Under the pieces are notes generated by a model, which was not told the DNA's origin, did not search any database, and worked only from the letters and a program-made list of their open reading frames with translations. The position numbers and the translations under genes are program-made. This document shows, piece after piece, positions 48,083-60,586 of a stretch of DNA of 64,000 nucleotides; within the stretch, counting starts at the first letter, position 1, and every line of letters starts with the position of its first letter. This DNA is from Flavobacterium antarcticum DSM 19726 (GTDB lineage Bacteria > Bacteroidota > Bacteroidia > Flavobacteriales > Flavobacteriaceae), in NCBI RefSeq assembly GCF_000419685.1, contig NZ_ATTM01000002.1, forward strand, positions 62,001 through 126,000, read 5' to 3'.

Positions 48083-48114
48083 GTTCGATAGTTTACGAAC
48101 TAATCGTAAATTAG
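48083..48114 (+). promoter_or_regulatory. GbsR-type operator and promoter, copy 1 (degenerate)
   Basis: GTTCGAT-AGTT-TACGAAC (48083-48100) differs from the other two copies at two positions of the left arm. A -7-like TAAATTAG (48107-48114) follows at the same 6-nt distance. It is 25 bp before the regulator gene, consistent with autoregulation. The rest of the 335-bp gap from dus shows nothing recognisable. Confidence 0.65.
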
Positions 48115-48139
48115 CAATTGTAAAATAATCCAAGCAATC

Positions 48140-48631
48140 ATGTCGCAGAAAAAAAAACAAGAACAACTTATTGAACAAATCGGCTTAGGAATTGAAGGCA
48201 ATCTACATTTATCGCCTTTAGCAGCAAGAATTTACGCCTTAATCATCTTGTCTTCCGAGGAGGGTCTAACTTTTGAAGAAATAAGAGCGATTATTTTGTC
48301 AAGTAAAAGTTCAACTTCGGTAAATATTAATGTACTGCTACAATTAGATTATATTTTATTTTATACAAAACCTGGCGACAGAAAACGGTATTTTAAACTT
48401 GCAAAATACTCGTCTTTGGTACTGTTAGAAGCTTATCTTGACGGAACTGATATGGAAATGGAGATGGTTGAAAAGATTAATGATTACAACAGAAATTATT
48501 TTCCAGAAAAATTTACAAACGAAGAATCTGTAGGCCAAATTTTTGAAAGTTACTTAGAAGAGAAAAAGCAGCTTGTGGAGCGGACAATAAGCAAGATGAA
48601 AGAATTTAGAGAAAGCGAGAAAAAGCATTAA
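48140..48631 (+). CDS. GbsR/MarR-family transcriptional regulator A
   Basis: 163-aa winged-helix regulator. N-terminal helix, then L-S-P-L-A-A-R-I-Y-A and the HTH (about residues 38-80: L-T-F-E-E-I-R...S-S-K-S-S-T-S-V-N-I-N-V-L) with the wing K-P-G-D-R-K-R-Y-F. A long helical C-terminus probably dimerises and binds ligand. It is clearly paralogous to the protein at 56678-57157 (shared L-S-P-L-x-A-R-I-Y and L-I-L-S-S-x-E-G-L-T-F-E). With a copy of the palindrome on its own promoter, it is the best candidate for the factor that reads all three. Confidence 0.88.
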   Translation: MSQKKKQEQLIEQIGLGIEGNLHLSPLAARIYALIILSSEEGLTFEEIRAIILSSKSSTSVNINVLLQLDYILFYTKPGDRKRYFKLAKYSSLVLLEAYLDGTDMEMEMVEKINDYNRNYFPEKFTNEESVGQIFESYLEEKKQLVERTISKMKEFRESEKKH

Positions 48632-48672
48632 CTAAATATGAATTTTAAACTTTAACAAACCTTTAAACTAAT

Positions 48673-48707
48673 TTGGTTCGTATTGTTACGAACTAACAAT
48701 ATCTTTG
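48673..48707 (+). promoter_or_regulatory. GbsR-type operator and promoter, copy 2
   Basis: TTG (48673-48675) is followed directly by GTTCGTA-TTGT-TACGAAC (48676-48693) and the -7 element TATCTTTG (48700-48707). The operator fills the spacer between -33 and -7, so a bound protein should block RNA polymerase. Confidence 0.75.
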
Positions 48708-48900
48708 TGCTTTGAATTGTGAACTTTTAAACTACGGTTTTAGAATAGTAATTTGATTTTATTCACTTTATTAAAATATTCGCTAGTAAGTTGGCGTCGG
48801 CAAATAAAGCCTTGCCATAATTTATAAAAAAGCTTCTCCTAATAAAACAAGTTTTACAACAATCAAAAACAATTTAACTTAAAAGCAAAATTACTACATC

Positions 48901-49539
48901 ATGGAAAAATCATTTTTAGATTCTATCAAAACAGCTATTAAACATTGGTACGTACCTCTTTTAATAGGTATATTTTTTATTGTAGTAAGTATTGTTGCCT
49001 TTACTTCTCCGATAAGTTCATTACTTACGCTATCGATGCTTTTTGCAATTTCATTCTTGTTTGGAGGTATTTCAGAAGTTCTATTTTCAATTGTAAATAG
49101 AAATCAGTTGGACAATTGGGGTTGGTCACTTACTTTCGGAATTATCACACTTTTGGTCGGATTTTCATTATTAATACATCCAGCGATTTCAATAGGTGTA
49201 ATGGCATTTTACATCGGTTTTGTAATCTTATTTCGTTCCGCTTCTGCGATTAGTTTTTCGTTAGATATTAAAAGTCGTGGAGGTAAAAATTGGGCTATGC
49301 TGTTAGCTTTGGGAATTCTAGGAATCATATTCTCTTTTATACTTATATGGAATCCGATCTTTGCTGGGTTAAGCGTTATTTGGTTAATTTCAATAACCTT
49401 CATGATTGCAGGATTATTTAGCATTGCATTATCGTTCCAACTAAAAAATTTACACAAAAATAGAAAGCAGATTTCTGCAAACTTAAGAATGCGTTTTGAG
49501 GATTTACAACAAGAACTGCGTGAAGAGTGGAGGAATTAA
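48901..49539 (+). CDS. HdeD-like (DUF308) membrane protein
   Basis: 212-aa protein with six predicted membrane segments in three hairpins (about 17-35, 42-62, 73-92, 97-117, 130-150, 155-177) and a charged C-terminal helix. It fits the HdeD/DUF308 family linked with acid and envelope stress in E. coli. The leader from its predicted start to the ATG is about 185 nt, unusually long here. Controlled, by inference, by the palindrome at 48676. Confidence 0.82.
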   Translation: MEKSFLDSIKTAIKHWYVPLLIGIFFIVVSIVAFTSPISSLLTLSMLFAISFLFGGISEVLFSIVNRNQLDNWGWSLTFGIITLLVGFSLLIHPAISIGVMAFYIGFVILFRSASAISFSLDIKSRGGKNWAMLLALGILGIIFSFILIWNPIFAGLSVIWLISITFMIAGLFSIALSFQLKNLHKNRKQISANLRMRFEDLQQELREEWRN

Positions 49540-49649
49540 AAAAAACTATTAAATTTTCAGTCCGTTAAAAATTCCAATTAAAAAGTTTAATTTAGTGTAG
49601 CTCGTTACCGAAGTAAAAATAGAGGTCGTTAAAACTCGCAGGTATTTAA

Positions 49650-49696
49650 TATTTTGAAAAATGGAAGTATGTATTTTAGCATACTTTTTCAAAATA
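49650..49696. other. Long imperfect hairpin in a 345-bp gene-free gap
   Basis: Arms 49650-49661 plus 49667-49671 pair with 49680-49696, 17 bp with a 5-nt bulge and 8-nt loop. No T tract follows on either strand within 10 nt, so it is not a standard terminator. The rest of 49540-49884 shows no gene or promoter that I can support. Confidence 0.5.
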
Positions 49697-49884
49697 ACGA
49701 TACAAATAAATGAGTTGTTGCATTTTTTGAGTTTTTGCCAAATTGATCTAAGGTTGAAGCGAAGGTTTCATCGATTGTGTCAAATGTAAATTTTCAAAAG
49801 TATGTGGCAAAATCAATTTCAATTTCAATTTAATATTATCCTAACAAAAGCTTTTACAAGTGGTAGAGGACAAAAAATAATAAT

Positions 49885-50346
49885 ATGGAAAGTACTAATC
49901 AAAAACTAATCAAAGGTGCCATAAAAACAGCAATTATCAATGGCTTTATCAACGGTGGAATTCAATATTTTTTATTAAAAGACCGCACTTTAATTTCAAT
50001 AACCGTAGATTCAATTACCAATACTGACGAAACCGTTTTAGGCACAGCTGTTGTTTTGTCCATAACATTGGCAATGATTCTAACTGTTATTGGTTATTTT
50101 ACTGTAAAACAAGAAAAAGTTGCGTTTTTTCCAAATGCATTTTGGCTAATTATCAAACATGGTTTTTTCACATTTGGAGTATTAACATCGTTAGCCGTTT
50201 TATGGCAAAAATATATGGGCACTGTACAAGTCCCATTACTAACCGCTCTGATTATTATAGGTGTTATATCTGGAGTTGTTTCTGGAGTGGTAAATTATTT
50301 GACGTTAAAAGGATGTGTAAAAACCAATCCGTTAGTTAGCGCATAA
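49885..50346 (+). CDS. Small four-helix membrane protein, unknown function
   Basis: 153-aa protein with four predicted membrane segments (about 12-28, 50-70, 85-107, 115-138) and short loops. No conserved motif was recognised. It lies between the HdeD-like and HdhA-like genes on the same strand but with gaps of 345 and 227 nt, so co-transcription is uncertain. The ATG is 3 nt after a purine-rich A/T stretch typical of starts here. Confidence 0.65.
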   Translation: MESTNQKLIKGAIKTAIINGFINGGIQYFLLKDRTLISITVDSITNTDETVLGTAVVLSITLAMILTVIGYFTVKQEKVAFFPNAFWLIIKHGFFTFGVLTSLAVLWQKYMGTVQVPLLTALIIIGVISGVVSGVVNYLTLKGCVKTNPLVSA

Positions 50347-50414
50347 TTTGAAAATAAACTAGTTAAATTAAAATAGAACTTTAAAGATTACAAGAGTAAT
50401 ACAATTTGAAATAA

Positions 50415-50519
50415 AGAGAAAACATTGTTATAGGATTTAAAAATAGTTCTTCCGCATTTATTATTTCTGACAAAAAGACCGGAATTCAAATGGTAAAAGT
50501 TGCGGAAGTAGAATCTTAG
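50415..50519 (+). pseudogene. Possible 3' remnant of a gene
   Basis: A 34-codon open stretch without a start codon ends in TAG. Its composition is protein-like (K-N-S-S-S-A-F-I-I-S-D then K-T-G-I-Q-M-V-K-V-A-E-V-E-S), and it lies in a 227-bp gap. It may be the end of a deleted gene; chance cannot be excluded. Confidence 0.25.
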
Positions 50520-50573
50520 AAAAAAATATCATGAGAAACGTGATGAAACATTTATAATTAAAAATTAAAAAAT

Positions 50574-51353
50574 ATGGATACTAAAAAGTTGTTTGATTTA
50601 ACAGGAAAAACTGCAATAGTCACTGGTGGTGCAGCAGGAATAGGTAAAGCAAGTTGCGAAATGCTTTCTGCATTTGGAGCAAATGTTGTAGTTTCAGATT
50701 ACAATCTTGAAGCGGCAGAAAAAACCGCTAAAGAAATTAATGACAACGGCGGGAAAGCAATTGCTATTGATTGTGATGTGACTAAAGATGAAGCATTAGT
50801 AAACTTAGTAGAGAAAACTGTTGCGGCATTTGGAAGCATCGAAATCCTTGTCAATAATGTTGGTGGCGGAGGTGCAGGAAAAGAAAGTCCTTACGATATC
50901 GAAGTGGAACAGTTTAAGAAAGTTTTTGAAATGAATGTATTTAGTATGTGGCGTTTGTGCCAATTAGTGGCACCACATATGAAAAAAGCAGGTTATGGAA
51001 GTATAATTAATATGTCTTCAATGGCCTCGATTAATAAAAGTCCTGCGATTAGTGCCTATGCTTCTTCAAAAGCAGCAATTAACCACATGACCAGAAACTT
51101 AGCATTTGACTACGGACCAGACAATATCCGAATCAATGCAATTGGACCTGGAGCAACAAGAACACATGCTTTAAGTACAGTTTTAACTCCTGAGTTGGAA
51201 AAAGCAATGCTGAAACATACGCCAATTCATCGTTTAGGAGAAGCAGAAGATATTGCAGGAGCAGTACTTTACTTTGCAGCTCCAATTTCAAGCTGGACAA
51301 GCGGACAAGTTATATTTATCAATGGTGGAGGAGAACAAACCTTAGACATGTAA
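50574..51353 (+). CDS. HdhA-like short-chain dehydrogenase (7-alpha-hydroxysteroid dehydrogenase type)
   Basis: 259-aa classical SDR. NAD(P)-binding T-G-G-A-A-G-I-G (about 18-25), D-V of the Asp loop, N-N-V-G (in place of N-N-A-G), catalytic Ser in N-M-S-S-M-A, and Y-A-S-S-K for Tyr and Lys. Sequence similarity to E. coli HdhA is high across the whole length, including Q-L-V-A-P and H-T-P-I-x-R-L-G. It could act on bile acids or other hydroxy compounds; substrate not provable. It ends at a terminator and carries no copy of the palindrome. Confidence 0.85.
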   Translation: MDTKKLFDLTGKTAIVTGGAAGIGKASCEMLSAFGANVVVSDYNLEAAEKTAKEINDNGGKAIAIDCDVTKDEALVNLVEKTVAAFGSIEILVNNVGGGGAGKESPYDIEVEQFKKVFEMNVFSMWRLCQLVAPHMKKAGYGSIINMSSMASINKSPAISAYASSKAAINHMTRNLAFDYGPDNIRINAIGPGATRTHALSTVLTPELEKAMLKHTPIHRLGEAEDIAGAVLYFAAPISSWTSGQVIFINGGGEQTLDM

Positions 51354-51383
51354 ATTTAGAGTTCAAAATATTTTACTCATAAC

Positions 51384-51415
51384 AAACCTCACAACTTTCA
51401 AAAGCTGTGGGGTTT
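51384..51415 (+). terminator. Terminator after the HdhA-like gene
   Basis: 15-bp stem with two G-T pairs and a T6 tail. Confidence 0.85.
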
Positions 51416-51610
51416 TTTATTTGCACTAAAATGTAAAACAAGAGAGATTAAAGTCAGCATTACTTAAAATGGTTAGTAGGGAAATTATAATAAATTTCCA
51501 TGTTAGTTGATTGATTTGGATGGATTAACAAATTTCGTAGCAAGTGAAATTCCAGTATTCGCTATCGGCGATGCTACCTAGGTTTTAATTTAACATAAGT
51601 TTATTTCTAT

Positions 51611-51645
51611 TTGGTTCGTATCGTTACGAACTAATCGTATATTTG
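51611..51645 (+). promoter_or_regulatory. GbsR-type operator and promoter, copy 3
   Basis: TTG (51611-51613), GTTCGTA-TCGT-TACGAAC (51614-51631) and TATATTTG (51638-51645) have exactly the same geometry as copy 2. It heads the stress-protein/efflux operon, with only about 28 nt to the ATG. The upstream part of this 320-bp gap shows only the terminator. Confidence 0.78.
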
Positions 51646-51673: not shown

Positions 51674-52519
51674 ATGAAAACGATATTAGTTCCCACAGAT
51701 TTCTCACGACACAGCGAAAATGCTTTAAAAGCAGCAGCATTAATTGCAAAACATCAAGATGCAAAACTGTTAGTAGTTCACATCGCAGGAATTAGCGGAA
51801 CTTCATTAATAAAAGCTAAAAGTCAGAATTTAGAAGAAACAATATTTCAAATCAGGCTAGCAGAGAAAAACTTTTCAGAATTTTTAGATAAATCGTATTT
51901 AAAAGGATTACAAGTGTTTCAAGTTATAAAAAAAGAAACTAACTTTAGTGAAATTAATTCTATACTTGAAGAACATAACGTTTCGCTAATCGTGATGAGT
52001 TCTCATGGAACCAGTGGTTTGCAAGATTTTATCATTGGTTCAAATACTGAAAAAGTGATTCGGTTTTCAGATGTACCGGTTTTAGTTATTAAAGGTGAAG
52101 CCTCTAATTATAAAATGGGCGTTGGCGTTTACACAACTGATTTCTCAGAAGAAAGTATCGAAGCTTATAAAAAAGCAAAGAACTTTTTCAAGGATTGGCA
52201 AACAGAAATGAAAATGTTATACGTAAATCCTACAGGGCGAAAATTTAAAAATACGCGTGAGATTGACACTATGTTAATTGAATTTTTTCAAAAAGCAGAA
52301 GTAGAAGCGGAAGAAATTTTAGCATGCAAAAATAGCGTTAAAATATATTCAGAACATTCTATAGAAGAAGGGATTTTTAATTATAGTAAAGACATAAATG
52401 CTGATTTTATTGTCATTCCTACACATGCTAGAAAAGGAATTGCACACATTTTAAAAGGAAGTCTTTCAGCTGATGTTGCTAATCATTCAATGATTCCTGT
52501 CTTAACTATTAAAATATAA
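51674..52519 (+). CDS. Tandem universal stress protein (UspA, two domains)
   Basis: 281-aa cytoplasmic protein of two Usp domains (1-142 and 147-281). Domain 1 starts I-L-V-P-T-D-F-S and has the ATP-type loop S-S-H-G-T-S-G-L-Q-D-F-I-I-G-S. Domain 2 has a weaker start and T-H-A-R-K-G-I-A-H-I-L-K-G-S. First gene of a probable five-gene operon (usp, tolC-like, hlyD-like, MFS, gbsR-like) with gaps of 4-60 nt. Confidence 0.9.
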   Translation: MKTILVPTDFSRHSENALKAAALIAKHQDAKLLVVHIAGISGTSLIKAKSQNLEETIFQIRLAEKNFSEFLDKSYLKGLQVFQVIKKETNFSEINSILEEHNVSLIVMSSHGTSGLQDFIIGSNTEKVIRFSDVPVLVIKGEASNYKMGVGVYTTDFSEESIEAYKKAKNFFKDWQTEMKMLYVNPTGRKFKNTREIDTMLIEFFQKAEVEAEEILACKNSVKIYSEHSIEEGIFNYSKDINADFIVIPTHARKGIAHILKGSLSADVANHSMIPVLTIKI

Positions 52520-52558: not shown

Positions 52559-53881
52559 ATGAAAAAGGTACTATTTTTAAATCTTTTAGGTATAATGCTT
52601 TTTGGTATTGGTAACCAATTTGCCACTGCACAACAAATGCAAGAGCGCCAGATGACGGTTCAAGAATTAGCTAAGAGTTTGAGGGAAAACAACATTCAAT
52701 TAAAAATTGCAAATACTTCGATCAAAGTTGCAGACGCACGAATTGGCGAGGTAAAAACCAACAGGTTGCCTGATATTTCAACAGATGTAAGTGCTTTTTA
52801 TTTAAGTGATGTGACTATTTATAATACTGGTTTTAAAAAATTGCAAACTGTTGACCTTCCCAATTTTGGTAATCAATTTAATTTAAATGCGAGTCAACTT
52901 ATTTTTGCCGGAGGTAAAATTAACAAATCCATTGCTCTAGCTGAACTTAGTAAAACCTTAAGTGAAGACCAACTTAACAATACTGAACAAGGTGTCAAGT
53001 TAAATGCAACTGAATTATATTTGAGTCTTTACAATCTTCAGAATCAAAAAGTAATTCTTGAAAACAATAAAAGCTTGGCCACAAAACGTACACAAAACAC
53101 CAAGCTTTTTTACGATCAGGATATGATTACTAAAAATGAGATGCTTCGTGCAGAAGTTTTGGAACGTCAATTGGAGCAAAGCATTCTTCAAGTGCAAAAT
53201 GCTATTTTGATTACTAATAAAAATTTGACGTTGCTAGCAGGATTAGACGAAAACATTCTAATTGTTCCAACTATTGATAATATTCAACATAATGTTCGAG
53301 AACAAAACGAGCAGTATTATCGTCAAATTGCTTTCGCCAAAAATCCACAGCTGAATGCGAGTGATACACAAATCGTCATTGCAGAGAAAAATTTGGAACT
53401 AACAAGAACGGATAGATTACCAGTGCTTGCAGCATTTGCAGGTTACAATTCAAGTAGACCGCAGACTTCCGGAACTCCTGTTGATTTATATTCTAATACG
53501 TATCAAGTTGGTTTAAGTCTGTCCTACGACATCGAGTCGATTTTTAAAAACCGTAAAAGAGAAGCTGTTGACAAAGTACTAATTGACCAAGCAGAATTAC
53601 AGAAGGAATCCGTAAGGCAACAGATTGAAGCGGATGTAAATGCTGCTTATAAAAATTATTTGCAAGCGGTTGAGCAGCGAGAAGTAAGTATTATAAACCG
53701 AGACGCGGCGGATGAAAATTACCGGATTACAGATTTAAAATATAAAAATCAACTGATTACTTACCTTGAAATTATTGACGCTTCAAACACAAAATTGCAA
53801 GCTGATTTAAAGGTGCTTGATGATCAAACAGACATCATATTAAACTATGTGAGACTTCTTCGAGTAACAGGACAACTATAA
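52559..53881 (+). CDS. TolC-family outer-membrane efflux protein
   Basis: 440 aa from ATG at 52559 (signal peptide to about 23, ending A-T-A-Q); a TTG 15 nt upstream is less likely. Two outer-membrane efflux domains (about 40-225 and 240-435) have long amphipathic helices rich in Gln, Asn and Leu, as in TolC. It should form the outer-membrane tunnel for the HlyD-MFS pair next to it. Confidence 0.9.
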   Translation: MKKVLFLNLLGIMLFGIGNQFATAQQMQERQMTVQELAKSLRENNIQLKIANTSIKVADARIGEVKTNRLPDISTDVSAFYLSDVTIYNTGFKKLQTVDLPNFGNQFNLNASQLIFAGGKINKSIALAELSKTLSEDQLNNTEQGVKLNATELYLSLYNLQNQKVILENNKSLATKRTQNTKLFYDQDMITKNEMLRAEVLERQLEQSILQVQNAILITNKNLTLLAGLDENILIVPTIDNIQHNVREQNEQYYRQIAFAKNPQLNASDTQIVIAEKNLELTRTDRLPVLAAFAGYNSSRPQTSGTPVDLYSNTYQVGLSLSYDIESIFKNRKREAVDKVLIDQAELQKESVRQQIEADVNAAYKNYLQAVEQREVSIINRDAADENYRITDLKYKNQLITYLEIIDASNTKLQADLKVLDDQTDIILNYVRLLRVTGQL

Positions 53882-53908: not shown

Positions 53909-55000
53909 ATGGCAACAACAGAATCAACACCAGCGACGGAAACAAATCCAGAACCAAGCTCCAAGAAAAATAACAAACTGTATTTAACACTTTTAAATGC
54001 TTTTGTATTTATTATTACTCTTGTAGTTATCTGGTTCGTACTAAAAAACTATCTGCATATAAATGATGATACTTATGTGAGTGATGCACAAGTCAAAGCT
54101 TACATCAGTCCGGTAAATTCAAGAGTTCCTGGTTACATCAACGATATTTATTTTGAAGAACATCAGGCAGTAAAAAAAGGGGACACCTTGCTTATTTTGG
54201 ATAAAACCGAATTTGAAAATGCCATTTTACAAGCAGAAGCAGGATTGATTCAAGCAAAAGCAGGAAAAGCTTCAGTAGCTTCTTCTGTGGTTCGAGTGGG
54301 AAGTGGCGAAAGTACAGTTCAAGCAAATATGTTAGGCGTTAAAGCACAACTAAATAACGCACAAGCTGATTTAAGACGCTACAAAAATCTTTTAGAAAAT
54401 GATGCCGTTACACTCCAGCAGTATCAACAAATTGAAACGCAAGTAAAAACATTACAGTCGCAATATAATGCACTTAGCAAACAGAAAAATACAGCTGCTT
54501 TAGCTACCAGTGAAACTGAAAGTCAATTAGCAGTAAGTGATGCTCAAATAAAATCAGCAGAAGCGACTTTAGAAAGAGCAAAACTAAATTTACGTTATAC
54601 TGTAATTACGGCACCAGAAGACGGTATTATGGGACGTAGATCAATTACTGCAGGACAATACATTCAACCGGGACAACAAATTGCAGCTTTAGTTCAGCAA
54701 GATACGAAGTGGGTAGAAGCTAATTTATTGGAAACTCAATTAGCATTAGTAAAAATTGGTGACGTAATAGAATTCACTGTGGATGCTATCGGAAAAGAAA
54801 AATTTGAAGGAAAAATTACCTCAATTTCTGCGGCAACTGGTTCAGAATATTCCGCGGTTCCGACTGATAATTCTGCTGGAAATTTTGTAAAAGTGCAACA
54901 ACGTATTCCAGTAAAAATTGAATTTACAAAAAACAATGATGCTAAATTAATGAATAACGTACGTGTTGGTATGAACGTGGTTATGACTTTAAAAGACTAA
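53909..55000 (+). CDS. HlyD/EmrA-family membrane fusion protein
   Basis: 363-aa periplasmic adaptor. Cytoplasmic N-terminus, one membrane segment (about 27-47), barrel-sandwich hybrid halves (about 60-95 and 235-265, with D-G-I-M-G), an alpha-helical coiled coil (about 100-230) and a C-terminal beta-barrel. It resembles EmrA, which links a 14-helix MFS pump to TolC. The MFS gene follows after 4 nt. Confidence 0.92.
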   Translation: MATTESTPATETNPEPSSKKNNKLYLTLLNAFVFIITLVVIWFVLKNYLHINDDTYVSDAQVKAYISPVNSRVPGYINDIYFEEHQAVKKGDTLLILDKTEFENAILQAEAGLIQAKAGKASVASSVVRVGSGESTVQANMLGVKAQLNNAQADLRRYKNLLENDAVTLQQYQQIETQVKTLQSQYNALSKQKNTAALATSETESQLAVSDAQIKSAEATLERAKLNLRYTVITAPEDGIMGRRSITAGQYIQPGQQIAALVQQDTKWVEANLLETQLALVKIGDVIEFTVDAIGKEKFEGKITSISAATGSEYSAVPTDNSAGNFVKVQQRIPVKIEFTKNNDAKLMNNVRVGMNVVMTLKD

Positions 55001-55004
55001 TATA

Positions 55005-56618
55005 ATGTATAACAAAGGCTTATTTGCAGATTGGGTTTCCAAGCCGTTAATGATGGTTTTACTTCTTGTATTTCTACTGCCAATATTGGTAGTGAGCGGA
55101 ATTTATACAGGAAACCTGAGCTACATGGTAAGTAGTTTAGGTTCTCATAACGAATGGTTGGTTTTTGCTAATTATGCAGGTGTTGTGGGAATGGGTGTCA
55201 GCTTGCCAATTATATTTAGATATAAATTGCGATTTCATACTAAATATTTAATGGTGCGAACATTACTTTTTTTGGCTTTAGCCAATTTTATGATCGGTAC
55301 CACAGATAGCAACATCGTTATTGTATCAAGTGCTTTTTTCATTGGATTTTTGAAGATGTTTGCGCTAATTGAATTTATCATGCCTGCAATGTTAATCATC
55401 AGTCCAGATGGAAATCGTCCGCTATTTTACGCCATCTTTTATCCGTCTGCGATTGTTTTTCCGCAATTAGCAGGTTATTTAATGACACGGATCGGTTTTA
55501 GTACGTATTGGGAAAACGCAAATTTTCTAATTGCAGTGATAATGCTTTTTCTTGCGGCATTAGCGATTGTGTTTATGCATAATAAACGCTATGACAAAAA
55601 ACTTTCTAGAAAAGGAATAGACTGGACTGGAATGTTTTTATTCACATCGGTATTTTTAGCATTAGCTTATGTTATTTCATTTGCAAAGCAGCAAAATTAT
55701 TTTAGGTCAGATAACATAATACTTGCTTTAGCCATTATATTCTTTGGAAGCATTTTATATTTAATAAATCAGAAGCTAAAAGATGAACCTTTTATTGATT
55801 TTAGTTTTTTTAAAAATTACAGTGTCATTCATGGAAGTATGATGCTTTTGATGCTGGGTTTTTTCTTGGCGGGAAGTTCTTTACAAAGTAAGATAACCAT
55901 TGGAATTTTGGATTTTGATTCTGTGATGGATAACTCATTTAACCTTTGGATGATTCCCGGATTATTACTTGCTATTGGATTTAGTATGGTGTGGCTAGTT
56001 AGGGGAAAATCCTTAAAAATCTATATTCTTGCAGGATTCTCAGCATTTATATTTTATTACATTTTTATGTATTTCTTGGTTTCACCAGGTTTAAGTTACG
56101 ACCAACTTATAATCCCAAATATAATTCGTGGTTTTGGGATGGCCGTTTTATTCATCGGAATTTGGCTTTATGCGCTAGGTAATTTACCGCCACAATCGAT
56201 GCTTGGTGCAGCTGCAGTATTGATTATTGTGCGAACGATGATTGGGCCAGGAATGTGGAGTTTAGCATTTAATTATATTGATGGAATTTGGCAATTAGAA
56301 GCATTAACTAATATGGCTGGAAAGATTGATGCTTCGGCTTATTCGCGTCAACAAGCCATGAGTTTGTTTCGAACCATTAACCTTGATGCGTTGATGATTT
56401 CAACAAAAAGAATTTACGGTATGCTTGTCTTAGTAGGTTTTGCAGTCTTAGTATATGTCTCTTTCCTAAATCTAGATGGTTTAAGTAAAAGACGATTAGT
56501 GATTCTAAAAAAACGATTACGAGGACAATCGGTTGAGGGTTATTTGAGAGAAGTTGAAATTGATAATGAAGAAGTAATTGCAGAGGAAATAAAATCGGCA
56601 AGTGCCGTGGCGGTTTAA
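55005..56618 (+). CDS. MFS drug-efflux permease, EmrB/DHA2-like
   Basis: 537-aa protein with about 14 membrane segments, the number seen in the DHA2 (EmrB) group, and a charged ~45-residue C-terminal tail. Canonical DHA2 motifs are only weakly kept, so the substrate range could differ. With the adjacent HlyD and TolC genes it should make a proton-driven three-part pump across both membranes. Substrates unknown. Confidence 0.88.
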   Translation: MYNKGLFADWVSKPLMMVLLLVFLLPILVVSGIYTGNLSYMVSSLGSHNEWLVFANYAGVVGMGVSLPIIFRYKLRFHTKYLMVRTLLFLALANFMIGTTDSNIVIVSSAFFIGFLKMFALIEFIMPAMLIISPDGNRPLFYAIFYPSAIVFPQLAGYLMTRIGFSTYWENANFLIAVIMLFLAALAIVFMHNKRYDKKLSRKGIDWTGMFLFTSVFLALAYVISFAKQQNYFRSDNIILALAIIFFGSILYLINQKLKDEPFIDFSFFKNYSVIHGSMMLLMLGFFLAGSSLQSKITIGILDFDSVMDNSFNLWMIPGLLLAIGFSMVWLVRGKSLKIYILAGFSAFIFYYIFMYFLVSPGLSYDQLIIPNIIRGFGMAVLFIGIWLYALGNLPPQSMLGAAAVLIIVRTMIGPGMWSLAFNYIDGIWQLEALTNMAGKIDASAYSRQQAMSLFRTINLDALMISTKRIYGMLVLVGFAVLVYVSFLNLDGLSKRRLVILKKRLRGQSVEGYLREVEIDNEEVIAEEIKSASAVAV

Positions 56619-56677: not shown

Positions 56678-57157
56678 ATGGAAAAATTATCTAACGAAAA
56701 CATTTTATTAATTGAAGATATAGGTTTGGCGCTGGAAGAGCGTGCTGATTTATCACCACTTTCTGCCCGAATATATTCTACATTGATATTGTCATCTGAT
56801 GAGGGTTTAACTTTTGAAGACATTGTTACGATGCATCATGCAAGTAAAAGTTCCGTTTCTAATAATTTGAATGTGCTTATAAAATTAAAATACATTGAAT
56901 ATTATACGAAAACAGGTCAACGGAAAAGATTTTACAGAGCTTCAAGATTTTACGTGAAATCTGCTATGGAAAAATACAATCAAATGTTTGAAAAAGAAAT
57001 TGAAGTACTCGAAAAGATAAATAGTTTCAATAAGATAAATAATCCTGAACGATTTGAAAGTGAAAGGTATATGGGTACAATTTATCAAAAACACTTGATT
57101 GATACTACAGAAGAATTTAGAAGAAAAATTAGAGAAATAAGCGTGTTAGATAATTAA
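56678..57157 (+). CDS. GbsR/MarR-family transcriptional regulator B
   Basis: 159 aa from ATG at 56678 (a TTG at 56657 falls inside the inverted repeat and is rejected). It has the same fold and motifs as regulator A: L-S-P-L-S-A-R-I-Y, L-I-L-S-S-D-E-G-L-T-F-E, S-K-S-S-V-S-N-N-L-N-V-L and wing K-T-G-Q-R-K-R-F. As the last gene of the efflux operon it would be made with the pump and could feed back on it. The two regulators may compete for, or form heterodimers at, the same palindromes (inference). Confidence 0.88.
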   Translation: MEKLSNENILLIEDIGLALEERADLSPLSARIYSTLILSSDEGLTFEDIVTMHHASKSSVSNNLNVLIKLKYIEYYTKTGQRKRFYRASRFYVKSAMEKYNQMFEKEIEVLEKINSFNKINNPERFESERYMGTIYQKHLIDTTEEFRRKIREISVLDN

Positions 57158-58620: not shown

Positions 58621-59472
58621 ATGTCCATTTTAGGCAGGAGCGAAAGTACCTACAGGAATTATGCCCAACATGTAGCGGCAATAGCATTACACTTTGGAAA
58701 AATTCCAACCGAATTGGATGTAGAGCAAGTCCAAGAATACTTGTATATGCTCCAAAAGCGTTCCAAAACGCCTTCACAAACGTATTTTAAACATACCGTT
58801 TACGGACTTCGATTTATGCTCAAGTCCGAAGGATTGCCGTATGAATTTCTGCATTTACCTTCCATTAAACACGAGAAAAAACTACCAACGGTTCTCAGTA
58901 AAGAAGAAGTTTGGCGACTTCTTAAAAGCTGTCAATTGCTTAAACACAAAGTCCTTATCGGACTTTTGTATGGTTGTGGTTTGCGTTGTGGAGAAGTTCG
59001 TGCAATTCGTTTGCAGGACTTGGATTTTGATCGTTTACAACTCAAAGTAGTGCAAGGAAAAGGCAAGAAAGACCGTTATGTGCCACTTTCAAAACACTTA
59101 ATTCGGGGTCTAAAAATCTACATTGACGCCGAAAAACCCAAAACGTATTTGTTCAATGGCCAACCTGTTGGCCGAGCTGGAGGCGACTTTGACTCTCGAT
59201 ATTCTGCAAGAGGCGTTCAATGGGCGGTAAAGCAAGCCTGCAAAGCCGCTGGAATCGCTAAAGATGTTTGTGTACACACGATTCGCCATACGTTTGCCAC
59301 GCATTTACTCGAAGATGGACTCGATATTATCAGTTTAAAAAATCTCTTGGGACACGAGGATATTGAAACTACGATGCTGTATTTGCAAATTGCTCAACTC
59401 GACACCCAGAAAGCATTTAGTCCGCTAGATACTTTGTTTGATCAATGCGGTTCCAATGGAAACGAGCATTGA
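58621..59472 (+). CDS. Tyrosine recombinase of the IS91-like element, 5' end frameshifted
   Basis: 283 aa from the first in-frame ATG. All catalytic residues are present: Arg in G-L-R-C-G-E-V-R, Lys in G-K-G-K-K-D-R, H-T-I-R-H-T-F, His in L-G-H-E-D-I and Tyr in M-L-Y-L. The frame stays open upstream to 58519 with protein-like sequence (A-D-E-L-V-G-S...F-E-E-L-L-H-R-F). An ATG at 58515 would supply the true start (M-T-K-K) if one A were lost from the A8 run at 58520-58527. So either the gene is a frameshift mutant, or slippage at A8 makes the full product. The present ATG would cut into the N-terminal SAM-like DNA-binding domain. Confidence 0.82.
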   Translation: MSILGRSESTYRNYAQHVAAIALHFGKIPTELDVEQVQEYLYMLQKRSKTPSQTYFKHTVYGLRFMLKSEGLPYEFLHLPSIKHEKKLPTVLSKEEVWRLLKSCQLLKHKVLIGLLYGCGLRCGEVRAIRLQDLDFDRLQLKVVQGKGKKDRYVPLSKHLIRGLKIYIDAEKPKTYLFNGQPVGRAGGDFDSRYSARGVQWAVKQACKAAGIAKDVCVHTIRHTFATHLLEDGLDIISLKNLLGHEDIETTMLYLQIAQLDTQKAFSPLDTLFDQCGSNGNEH

Positions 59473-60586
59473 GCGAAGTCGAAATGAGGTAGCCCATGTA
59501 CTTGAGAAACTTGGTAAGAATGTAGAAAATCTAGGACTCAACACGTGGCAATTGCGGACTTTATCCGCCATAAAAAGATGCAGAACCGTGGCTTTAGGCG
59601 GTCACATTGACGCTTGTAACGATTGCGGAAATATCTCCATCAGTTATAACTCGTGCCGCAACCGTCATTGCCCCAAATGCCAAGGCAAAAACCGAGACGA
59701 TTGGATACAAGCTCGAACCACTGAACTATTGCCAGTACCGTACTTCCACGTTGTTTTTACACTTCCCGATAGCATTAATTCTTTAGCGATTCACAATCCA
59801 AAATTGGTGTACGACTTGCTATTTGAATCGGCCTGGGAAACCCTGAAAACCTTTGGTAAAAACAAAGGCGTTCAAAGCGGAATGATTGCCGTTTTGCACA
59901 CGTGGGGTCAGAATTTAAGTCTGCATCCGCACTTGCATTGCATTGTTCCAGGCGGTGGCGTGGACAAAAATGGCAAGTGGCAAAACATCCGAAGCGATGG
60001 CAATTTTTTGTTTCCCGTAAGGGCTTTGTCCAAAGTTTTTAGGGCGAAATATTGTGAGAAACTGAAAGAGAAGAGTCCGCTGGACTATGTAAAACTACAA
60101 CAGCAACTTTGGCAAAAACAATGGGTGGTTTTTGCCAAAAAGCCTTTTGGAAATGCGCATTCTGTGGTGGAATACTTGGGAAGATATACTCATAAAATAG
60201 CTATAAGCAACAACCGAATCCAAAACATTGACAATGAAAACGTAACATTTAAGTACAAAGATTACAAGCAAAACGAGACTAAAAAGCACATGACGCTCTC
60301 ACATGGAGAATTTATCCGTCGTTTTGCGTTGCATATTTTGCCCAAACGCTTTGTAAAAATAAGGCATTACGGTTTTTTGAGCAGTACTTGGAAACGCCAA
60401 AAGTTGAAAGATTTACAACGCAAACTCAAAATTCAATTAGTAGCCAAACCCAATAAAGAACCTACAATCAGAAAGTGTCAATGTTGCAAAACAGGCAATC
60501 TGCATACGATATTGGCTTTTGACACGAGAGGTCCACCGACTTGGTATCTTGGCGTTAGCCAAAAGGCAAAGTCCCATCAAAGTTAA
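59456..60586 (+). CDS. IS91-family HUH transposase
   Basis: 376 aa from M-E-T-S-I (ATG 59456; overlaps the recombinase gene by 17 nt). An N-terminal zinc-finger region (C-N-D-C-G, then C-R-N-R-H-C-P-K-C-Q, about 45-75) precedes the Rep-like nuclease with H-P-H-L-H-C-I (HUH, about 160) and the catalytic Tyr region Y-L-G-R-Y-T-H (about 240). The C-terminus has K-C-Q-C-C. The gene is complete and looks functional. Confidence 0.93.
   Translation: METSIERSRNEVAHVLEKLGKNVENLGLNTWQLRTLSAIKRCRTVALGGHIDACNDCGNISISYNSCRNRHCPKCQGKNRDDWIQARTTELLPVPYFHVVFTLPDSINSLAIHNPKLVYDLLFESAWETLKTFGKNKGVQSGMIAVLHTWGQNLSLHPHLHCIVPGGGVDKNGKWQNIRSDGNFLFPVRALSKVFRAKYCEKLKEKSPLDYVKLQQQLWQKQWVVFAKKPFGNAHSVVEYLGRYTHKIAISNNRIQNIDNENVTFKYKDYKQNETKKHMTLSHGEFIRRFALHILPKRFVKIRHYGFLSSTWKRQKLKDLQRKLKIQLVAKPNKEPTIRKCQCCKTGNLHTILAFDTRGPPTWYLGVSQKAKSHQS

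Follow-up and report, generated by a model that had tools for sequence, protein, structure and literature searches.

The 64,000-nucleotide (nt) stretch of the Flavobacterium antarcticum DSM 19726 genome that was analysed here (contig NZ_ATTM01000002.1, positions 62,001 to 126,000; hereafter the window) contains three copies of an 18-bp palindrome, GTTCGTA-N4-TACGAAC, in a gene cluster that encodes two GbsR/MarR-type regulators (GbsR1 and GbsR2), an HdeD-like membrane protein, and a universal stress protein (Usp) followed by a putative tripartite efflux pump. We consider it highly probable that this 18-mer is the operator of GbsR/MarR-type dimers, which would occlude the three promoters, release them jointly in response to a ligand, and regulate their own synthesis by feedback. 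The operator, its geometry and its linkage to this clade of regulators are read from the sequence and from comparison with other genomes; direct binding by each regulator, repression, the ligand, the extents of the operons and a role in stress are what we infer. To our knowledge, the transcription-factor operators and regulons of the Bacteroidota are thinly charted, and a search of open-licence PubMed Central papers brought up no description of this operator, which is weak evidence of absence.

A motif scan of the window placed perfect copies of the palindrome at 48676-48693 (operator 2) and 51614-51631 (operator 3) and a copy with two mismatches at 48083-48100 (operator 1), all on the forward strand, as the original prediction had reported. 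Operator 1 lies upstream of gbsR1, operator 2 upstream of the HdeD-like gene, and operator 3 upstream of the Usp-pump-gbsR2 operon. The claim that the distance to the -7 element is the same at each copy also held: exactly 6 nt separate the palindrome from a -7-like octamer at all three sites, the gap and octamer being TAATCG and TAAATTAG at site 1, TAACAA and TATCTTTG at site 2, and TAATCG and TATATTTG at site 3. Downstream of each palindrome the order is TAA-N3 and then the octamer, and the 18-mer extends to 24 bp when the TTR/TAA flanks are counted. The -7 box of F. johnsoniae and F. psychrophilum has the consensus TAHHTTTG and spans -12 to -5, in the passages of PMC6847099 and PMC9723704 that deal with it. 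Because the box takes up these positions, transcription is predicted to start near 48119, 48712 and 51650, with the operator cores at -36 to -19 in each case and predicted leaders of 21 nt for gbsR1, 189 nt for the HdeD-like gene and 24 nt for the Usp unit. At the predicted -12 to -5, the match to TAHHTTTG is exact at sites 2 (48700-48707) and 3 (51638-51645) and covers 5 of the 6 consensus bases at site 1 (48107-48114). Between 47.8 and 57.3 kb of the window, the only non-coding TAHHTTTG boxes are the two beside the perfect sites. The expected position of the -33 element falls within the left half-site, and the core covers the -33 region. It had further been claimed that in two copies the palindrome exactly fills the spacer between the -33 and -7 elements. 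This proved to be wrong, because at copies 2 and 3 the upstream TTTG abuts the palindrome, which puts it 24 nt (18 + 6) from the -7 box.

What exceeds chance is the combination of palindrome, fixed -7 register and intergenic placement. In the whole genome (3.08 Mb in 15 contigs) the perfect 18-mer occurs only as the two window copies. Ten places match within two mismatches; the three in the window are intergenic and have a -7 box, and the other seven lie within long open frames. A genome-wide scan for the 18-mer with a -7 box 6 nt downstream, which had been proposed as a check, returned only the three window sites at up to three mismatches, against one hit for the reversed control. The corresponding scan of relatives covered 397 genomes of the family and allowed up to three mismatches to the 18-mer with TAA and the -7 box; it detected 40 sites, spread over 30 genomes, versus 5 for the reversed pattern, and 24 of the 37 foreign sites lie directly before a gbsR homologue. 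Another two (L089, L090) precede an MFS-type gene followed by gbsR1, one (L079) precedes a PepSY-like gene followed by a pump that is 70-81% identical to that of the window, and five (L075, L080, L085, L096, L099) precede a gene for a META-domain lipoprotein, in stretches that also hold relatives of gbsR1, HdeD or SDR. The remaining five (L088, L092, L093, L095, L101) have no such adjoining gene and are about as many as the control predicted; at L095 an SDR relative (90% identical) lies approximately 4 kb from the site.

The linkage was also followed in the opposite direction, starting from the protein. Among 149 genomes of the family, a profile built from 21 regulators matched 71 times, in 64 genomes, and the 68 matches outside the F. 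antarcticum genome were fetched. Upstream of the 62 close homologues among them, GTTCG-N8-CGAAC was present with at most two mismatches in 61 and without any mismatch in 50, and a -7 box with at most one mismatch followed at 6 nt in 46, at 7 nt in 12, at 8 nt in one and at 9 nt in one, with none in one. The reversed core preceded one of the 62 without a -7 box and none with it, and each of 20 shuffles of the upstream stretches yielded no core. The sole close homologue that is missing the core, L142, keeps a decayed site with unchanged register, and the 6 distant homologues either have sites of the GTTCT type or lack a site altogether. The regulator gene is followed in 58 of the 62 close cases by an open frame for a membrane-fusion protein like that of an RND operon elsewhere in the F. 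antarcticum genome (an RND-type adaptor). In a sample of the phylum that shares few genomes with the family sample, a regulator match was found in 29 of 247 genomes, and of the 27 loci examined, 12 had GTTCG-N8-CGAAC with at most one mismatch, 11 had it with two (many with GTTCA or GTTCT half-sites, and some possibly through chance) and 4 had none. These sequences suggest that GTTC-N10-GAAC cores with other inner bases reach other classes of the phylum. The regulon had originally been described as a local one, but since the same kind of operator precedes 61 of the 62 close homologues in the 149 genomes and a third regulator in the F. antarcticum genome has a variant of it, the palindrome is likely to be the operator of a family-wide class of Bacteroidota GbsR/MarR-type regulators. 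The site can be read from sequence and has a nearly fixed -7 register, so candidate targets of this GbsR clade can be listed in flavobacterial genomes; in our sample they would be mostly RND pumps. A search of genome contigs with GbsR1 returned only the relative in Bizionia, and the starts chosen for two early relatives (L024, L025) showed no site.

Several observations weigh against this reading. The window has four matches at up to three mismatches, which is not above chance (mean of 2.26 in shuffled sequence, with four reached in 16 of 100 shuffles). Across 398 genomes of the genus there is no enrichment of the exact 18-mer: 5 sites were found in 4 genomes, 2 of the sites being those of the window, versus 6 in 5 for the reversed control. 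The gbsR1 gene itself has a site with two changes and an imperfect -7 box. The regulator profile was built partly from motif-selected proteins, and 14 of the 62 close homologues are in motif-selected genomes. Orthologues of the HdeD-like gene have no nearby site in 5 of 10 other genomes, and within the genus three further genomes have the perfect 18-mer immediately before ArsR-family genes (L037-L039, position 1501). Because the bare motif is neither significant in the window nor enriched in the genus, the case stands on geometry and gene linkage. The 48 close homologues from genomes never hit by the motif scan all have the core (40 of them mismatch-free), with the -7 box at 6 nt in 33 and at 6-7 nt in 45. 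An origin of the three sites by chance or by a recent local duplication of a promoter would agree with the unremarkable window count at three mismatches, but we give it almost no chance of being correct: beyond core, flank and -7 box the three sites have different surroundings, other genera have the site and its register as well, and the comparative data already contradict it. The ArsR-linked copies could mean that an unrelated regulator, of the ArsR family or with some other winged helix, owns the palindrome. However, in the flanks listed for these copies no TAnnTTTG box follows at 6 nt, and GTTCG-N8-CGAAC with a -7 box tracks gbsR homologues across the family, making such an owner very improbable, and ArsR-family regulators were rejected as owners of the window sites.

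GbsR1 and GbsR2 can be placed in the GbsR/Mj223 group of MarR-type regulators by predicted fold and weak sequence scores. They score 22.4 and 22.5 bits against Pfam MarR_2, just under the cut-off of 27; the best NCBIfam match is the CudC model (E 1.3e-3 and 4.1e-8), far under its 218-bit cut-off, and no GbsR-wide model matched. The AlphaFold2 (AF2) prediction for GbsR1 has a pLDDT of 93 and consists of an N-terminal winged helix and long C-terminal helices. Its best structural matches are 5jbr (Z 14.8, 142 residues, root-mean-square deviation (rmsd) 2.6), 4nb5 (Z 14.8, 149 residues, rmsd 4.5) and Mj223, 1ku9 (Z 14.2, 150 residues, rmsd 6.0), the last superposing over the full length, and phmmer matched GbsR1 to 4nb5 at 1.5e-4 and 1ku9 at 2.9e-3. 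The GbsR/OpuAR/CudC branch of the Bacilli shares with these regulators the Mj223-like full-length predicted fold and neighbouring transport genes as apparent local targets, although the sequences are only distantly related and choline or betaine genes give way here to efflux pumps, Usp and HdeD as targets. MepR, MarR and EmrR are local pump repressors, for which a regulator gene followed by a pump gene is the usual layout. Like these, the regulators described here are encoded beside a pump, have a palindrome over the promoter, and would be expected to be autoregulated. Unlike them, they have a Bacteroidota-type promoter and two paralogues over one operator, and their similarity to MepR and MarR is low (Foldseek approximately 2e-4 to 1e-3, rmsd >10). 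In those parts of PMC6207618 that concern them, Mj223 is the template used for the GbsR family, an aromatic cage that binds choline or betaine is described, and 73 homologues with uninformative neighbourhoods are assigned mainly to the Euryarchaeota and Bacteroidetes.

In the mechanism that we propose, dimers of GbsR1 and, very likely, of GbsR2 would bind the 18-mer with one winged helix per half-site. As a bound dimer would cover -36 to -19 and abut the -7 region at each of the three promoters, the sigma-A holoenzyme would be shut out. Repression had been part of the original prediction, and occlusion of the promoter is the natural reading. A small molecule that also calls for export may release the dimers, so that the three units would open together. 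The weak gbsR1 operator could leave gbsR1 partly on, giving graded autoregulation, and the opening of Usp-TolC-EmrA-EmrB-gbsR2 would close a second feedback loop through its last gene. A palindrome over the regulator's own promoter, as autoregulation would require, was found for gbsR1 and for 61 of the 62 homologues; gbsR2 is behind site 3 as the last gene of its unit. The cluster is therefore likely to be a small circuit of familiar type that governs stress response, efflux and its own expression, with the names of the genes alone suggesting that the stress is one of the envelope. It is also conceivable that the regulators are activators, or act in both ways, binding over the -33 region and aiding the polymerase at promoters without a -33 element. 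That element is weak in the F. johnsoniae promoters treated in the relevant part of PMC6847099, and TTTG lies here 24 nt from the -7 box. Activation nevertheless seems quite improbable to us, as the core is only 6 nt from the -7 box and the pump adaptor is the next gene in 58 of 62 relatives, which is the layout of local pump repressors. Moreover, the characterised family members GbsR, OpcR and OpuAR are repressors in the account that PMC6207618 gives of them.

A single repressor had been proposed for all three sites, and this was not borne out. Because two regulators are encoded and the GbsR2 orthologue of genome G707 itself carries a perfect site, both regulators probably read the site; judged from these sequences, it is thus probably two regulators, and not demonstrably one, that can use it. 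If only one of them, most simply GbsR1, were to read all three sites, GbsR2 would have another target or act as a dimer partner. This would fit genomes G717 and G690, where gbsR1 orthologues have T-type sites and no GbsR2-type regulator is among the matches, and Bizionia, whose fetched 20 kb showed none. We regard it as possible but somewhat unlikely, since G707, G783 and G492 each have a site of identical register before a gbsR2-like gene, and a KSS-x-S helix is common to GbsR1 and GbsR2.

The three targets that had been named, the regulator, the HdeD-like protein and the Usp-pump-gbsR2 operon, each sit behind a site in the window, but HdeD and the pump appear to be targets in some lineages only. 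A cluster of the order gbsR1-META-baeRF-HdeD-SDR in Bizionia argentinensis (L040) resembles that of the window in its orthologous regulator, HdeD and SDR genes and in the 6-nt register. Its gbsR1 orthologue (58% identity) has GTTCGTAATGTTATGAAC 6 nt from the -7 box TATATTTG, the adjacent gene for a META-domain lipoprotein has GTTCGTAATGTTACGAAC 6 nt from the -7 box TATATTTA, and relatives of HdeD (64%) and of the SDR oxidoreductase (91%) are downstream. Unlike in the window, the second Bizionia site precedes the META-domain lipoprotein gene and not HdeD, and no relative of the pump or of gbsR2 was found in the fetched 20 kb. The layout in G717 is similar to that of Bizionia. The Bizionia cluster also encodes a baeRF family 3 release-factor-like protein (L040:11563-12636), and such a gene recurs near HdeD in L223 and L224. 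In G707, a small PepSY-like gene and, behind it, a pump that is 70-81% identical are preceded by a site that has three mismatches when it is counted together with the -7 box. Here the pump and a META-SDR unit are on contig C11 and the gbsR1/gbsR2 pair is on C22, and as all of these carry the site in spite of their separation, the regulators would act in trans. Among 10 other genomes with an HdeD of at least 58% identity, a site lies 1-5 kb upstream in 5, HdeD never being the first gene after it; a regulator whose best match is of GbsR1 or GbsR2 type is encoded in 4 of the 5 genomes with a site and in 1 of the 5 without. The HdeD homologues of G077, G475 and G628 and a second copy in G631 are outside this comparison. 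No site was found near HdeD homologues of 39-49% identity in 11 fetched stretches. HdeD as a universal target was rejected, as was the pump, for which a close orthologue was found in only one of the 298 other genomes searched (G707, 81%) and no site was present in the 15 kb around the pump of G680 (40%).

A third regulator in the F. antarcticum genome (L103; C3:301863-302339) heads an operon of MFP, RND and NodT genes, and its putative operator GTTCGGTTTTTACCGAAC lies 7 nt from the -7 box TATCTTTG. As in the window, a GbsR homologue has an operator in front and pump genes behind; the differences from the window sites are that base 6 of both half-sites is G instead of T, that 7 nt separate it from the -7 box, and that the pump is of the RND and not the EmrAB type. 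Base 6 is G in 75 of 82 half-sites of regulators with KST-type helices, in 37 of 64 with KSS-type helices, and in 0 of 12 with the GbsR1-type KSS..VN helix, these counts being drawn from few rows that include motif-selected loci and related sequences. In five genomes with both types (G000, G653, G690, G707, G717), the STHL- or C3-type operator has G on both sides at base 6 and the GbsR1-type operator does not. The sixth, G783, does not fit, its gbsR1 having no site within two mismatches and its other regulator (38% to the reference) having C and T. Base 6 is mixed among GbsR2-like regulators (T/G in G492, G/A in G620, G/G in G631, T/G in G783, T/T in G707), and because it is mixed and four of these regulators also precede an RND-type adaptor, it does not sort by pump type. 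The site of gbsR1 itself has more mismatches to the window 18-mer than the best target has in 7 of 8 genomes, two of which share a genus, G690 being the exception. With so few rows, which are related and in part motif-selected, the base-6 code and the weak own operator are leads and not results. They allow a tentative picture, rather unlikely to be right as a whole, in which an old operator grammar shared by Bacteroidota GbsR regulators (GTTC-N10-GAAC, 6-7 nt from the -7 box) is varied at base 6 (G versus T) together with recognition-helix residues (T-H/T-S versus V-N). This could insulate the regulator of the RND pump from the newer GbsR1-type regulator, which with GbsR2 would, within one cell, run the regulon of stress and EmrAB-type pump genes, and a weaker gbsR1 operator would keep the regulator expressed while its targets are shut. 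Paralogues with different half-sites in one genome lend themselves to testing how repressors keep their regulons apart after duplication. Two further features were noted in this protein family. A further TTCG that resembles a half-site, often as AACTTCGNTTAGTTCGG, lies within 16 nt upstream of the core in 31 of the 61 close homologues that have a core, including STHL-type gbsR genes (e.g. L146, L151, L154), and could possibly serve a second dimer or be a promoter element. A distant GbsR/MarR-like family whose proteins start with EFKEAKNKF..WGALGSQWGINKTMAQ or near to it (L028, L033, L034), and which is also encoded at C5:49157-49363 of the F. antarcticum genome, has a different palindrome upstream, AACTTTCA-N8-TGAAAGTT or near to it.

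All genes of the window cluster are on the forward strand. The first unit is gbsR1 (48140-48631, 163 amino acids). It is followed by the gene for the HdeD-like membrane protein (DUF308; 48901-49539), by that for a membrane protein that may be distal in unit 2 (49885-50346), which we take to be DUF4199-like and which had no Pfam or NCBIfam match, and by the SDR oxidoreductase gene (50574-51353). A terminator-like hairpin with a T-run, read by eye, lies between the SDR gene and unit 3 (51384-51418). Unit 3 would comprise genes for a tandem Usp (51674-52519), a TolC-like outer-membrane channel (52559-53881), an EmrA/HlyD-like periplasmic adaptor (53909-55000), a DHA2/EmrB-like MFS exporter with a weak family score (55005-56618) and, as the last gene, gbsR2 (56690-57157), whose product is 41-45% identical to GbsR1 over the aligned part. 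The adaptor, exporter and channel expected of an EmrAB-TolC system in one operon each matched the respective model under its cut-off: TolC with 62 versus 225 bits, EmrA/EmrK with 210 versus 391 bits (E 4.6e-62) and EmrB with 49 versus 230 bits (E 4.1e-13). The predicted HdeD leader (48708-48900) occupies the place of the META-domain lipoprotein gene in Bizionia and G717 and is possibly the trace of a lost gene. Searches of plasmid records by tblastn returned no relatives of GbsR1. Just downstream of the cluster, at 58621-60583, are a tyrosine recombinase gene and then a gene for an IS91-type Y2 transposase with a zinc-binding domain.

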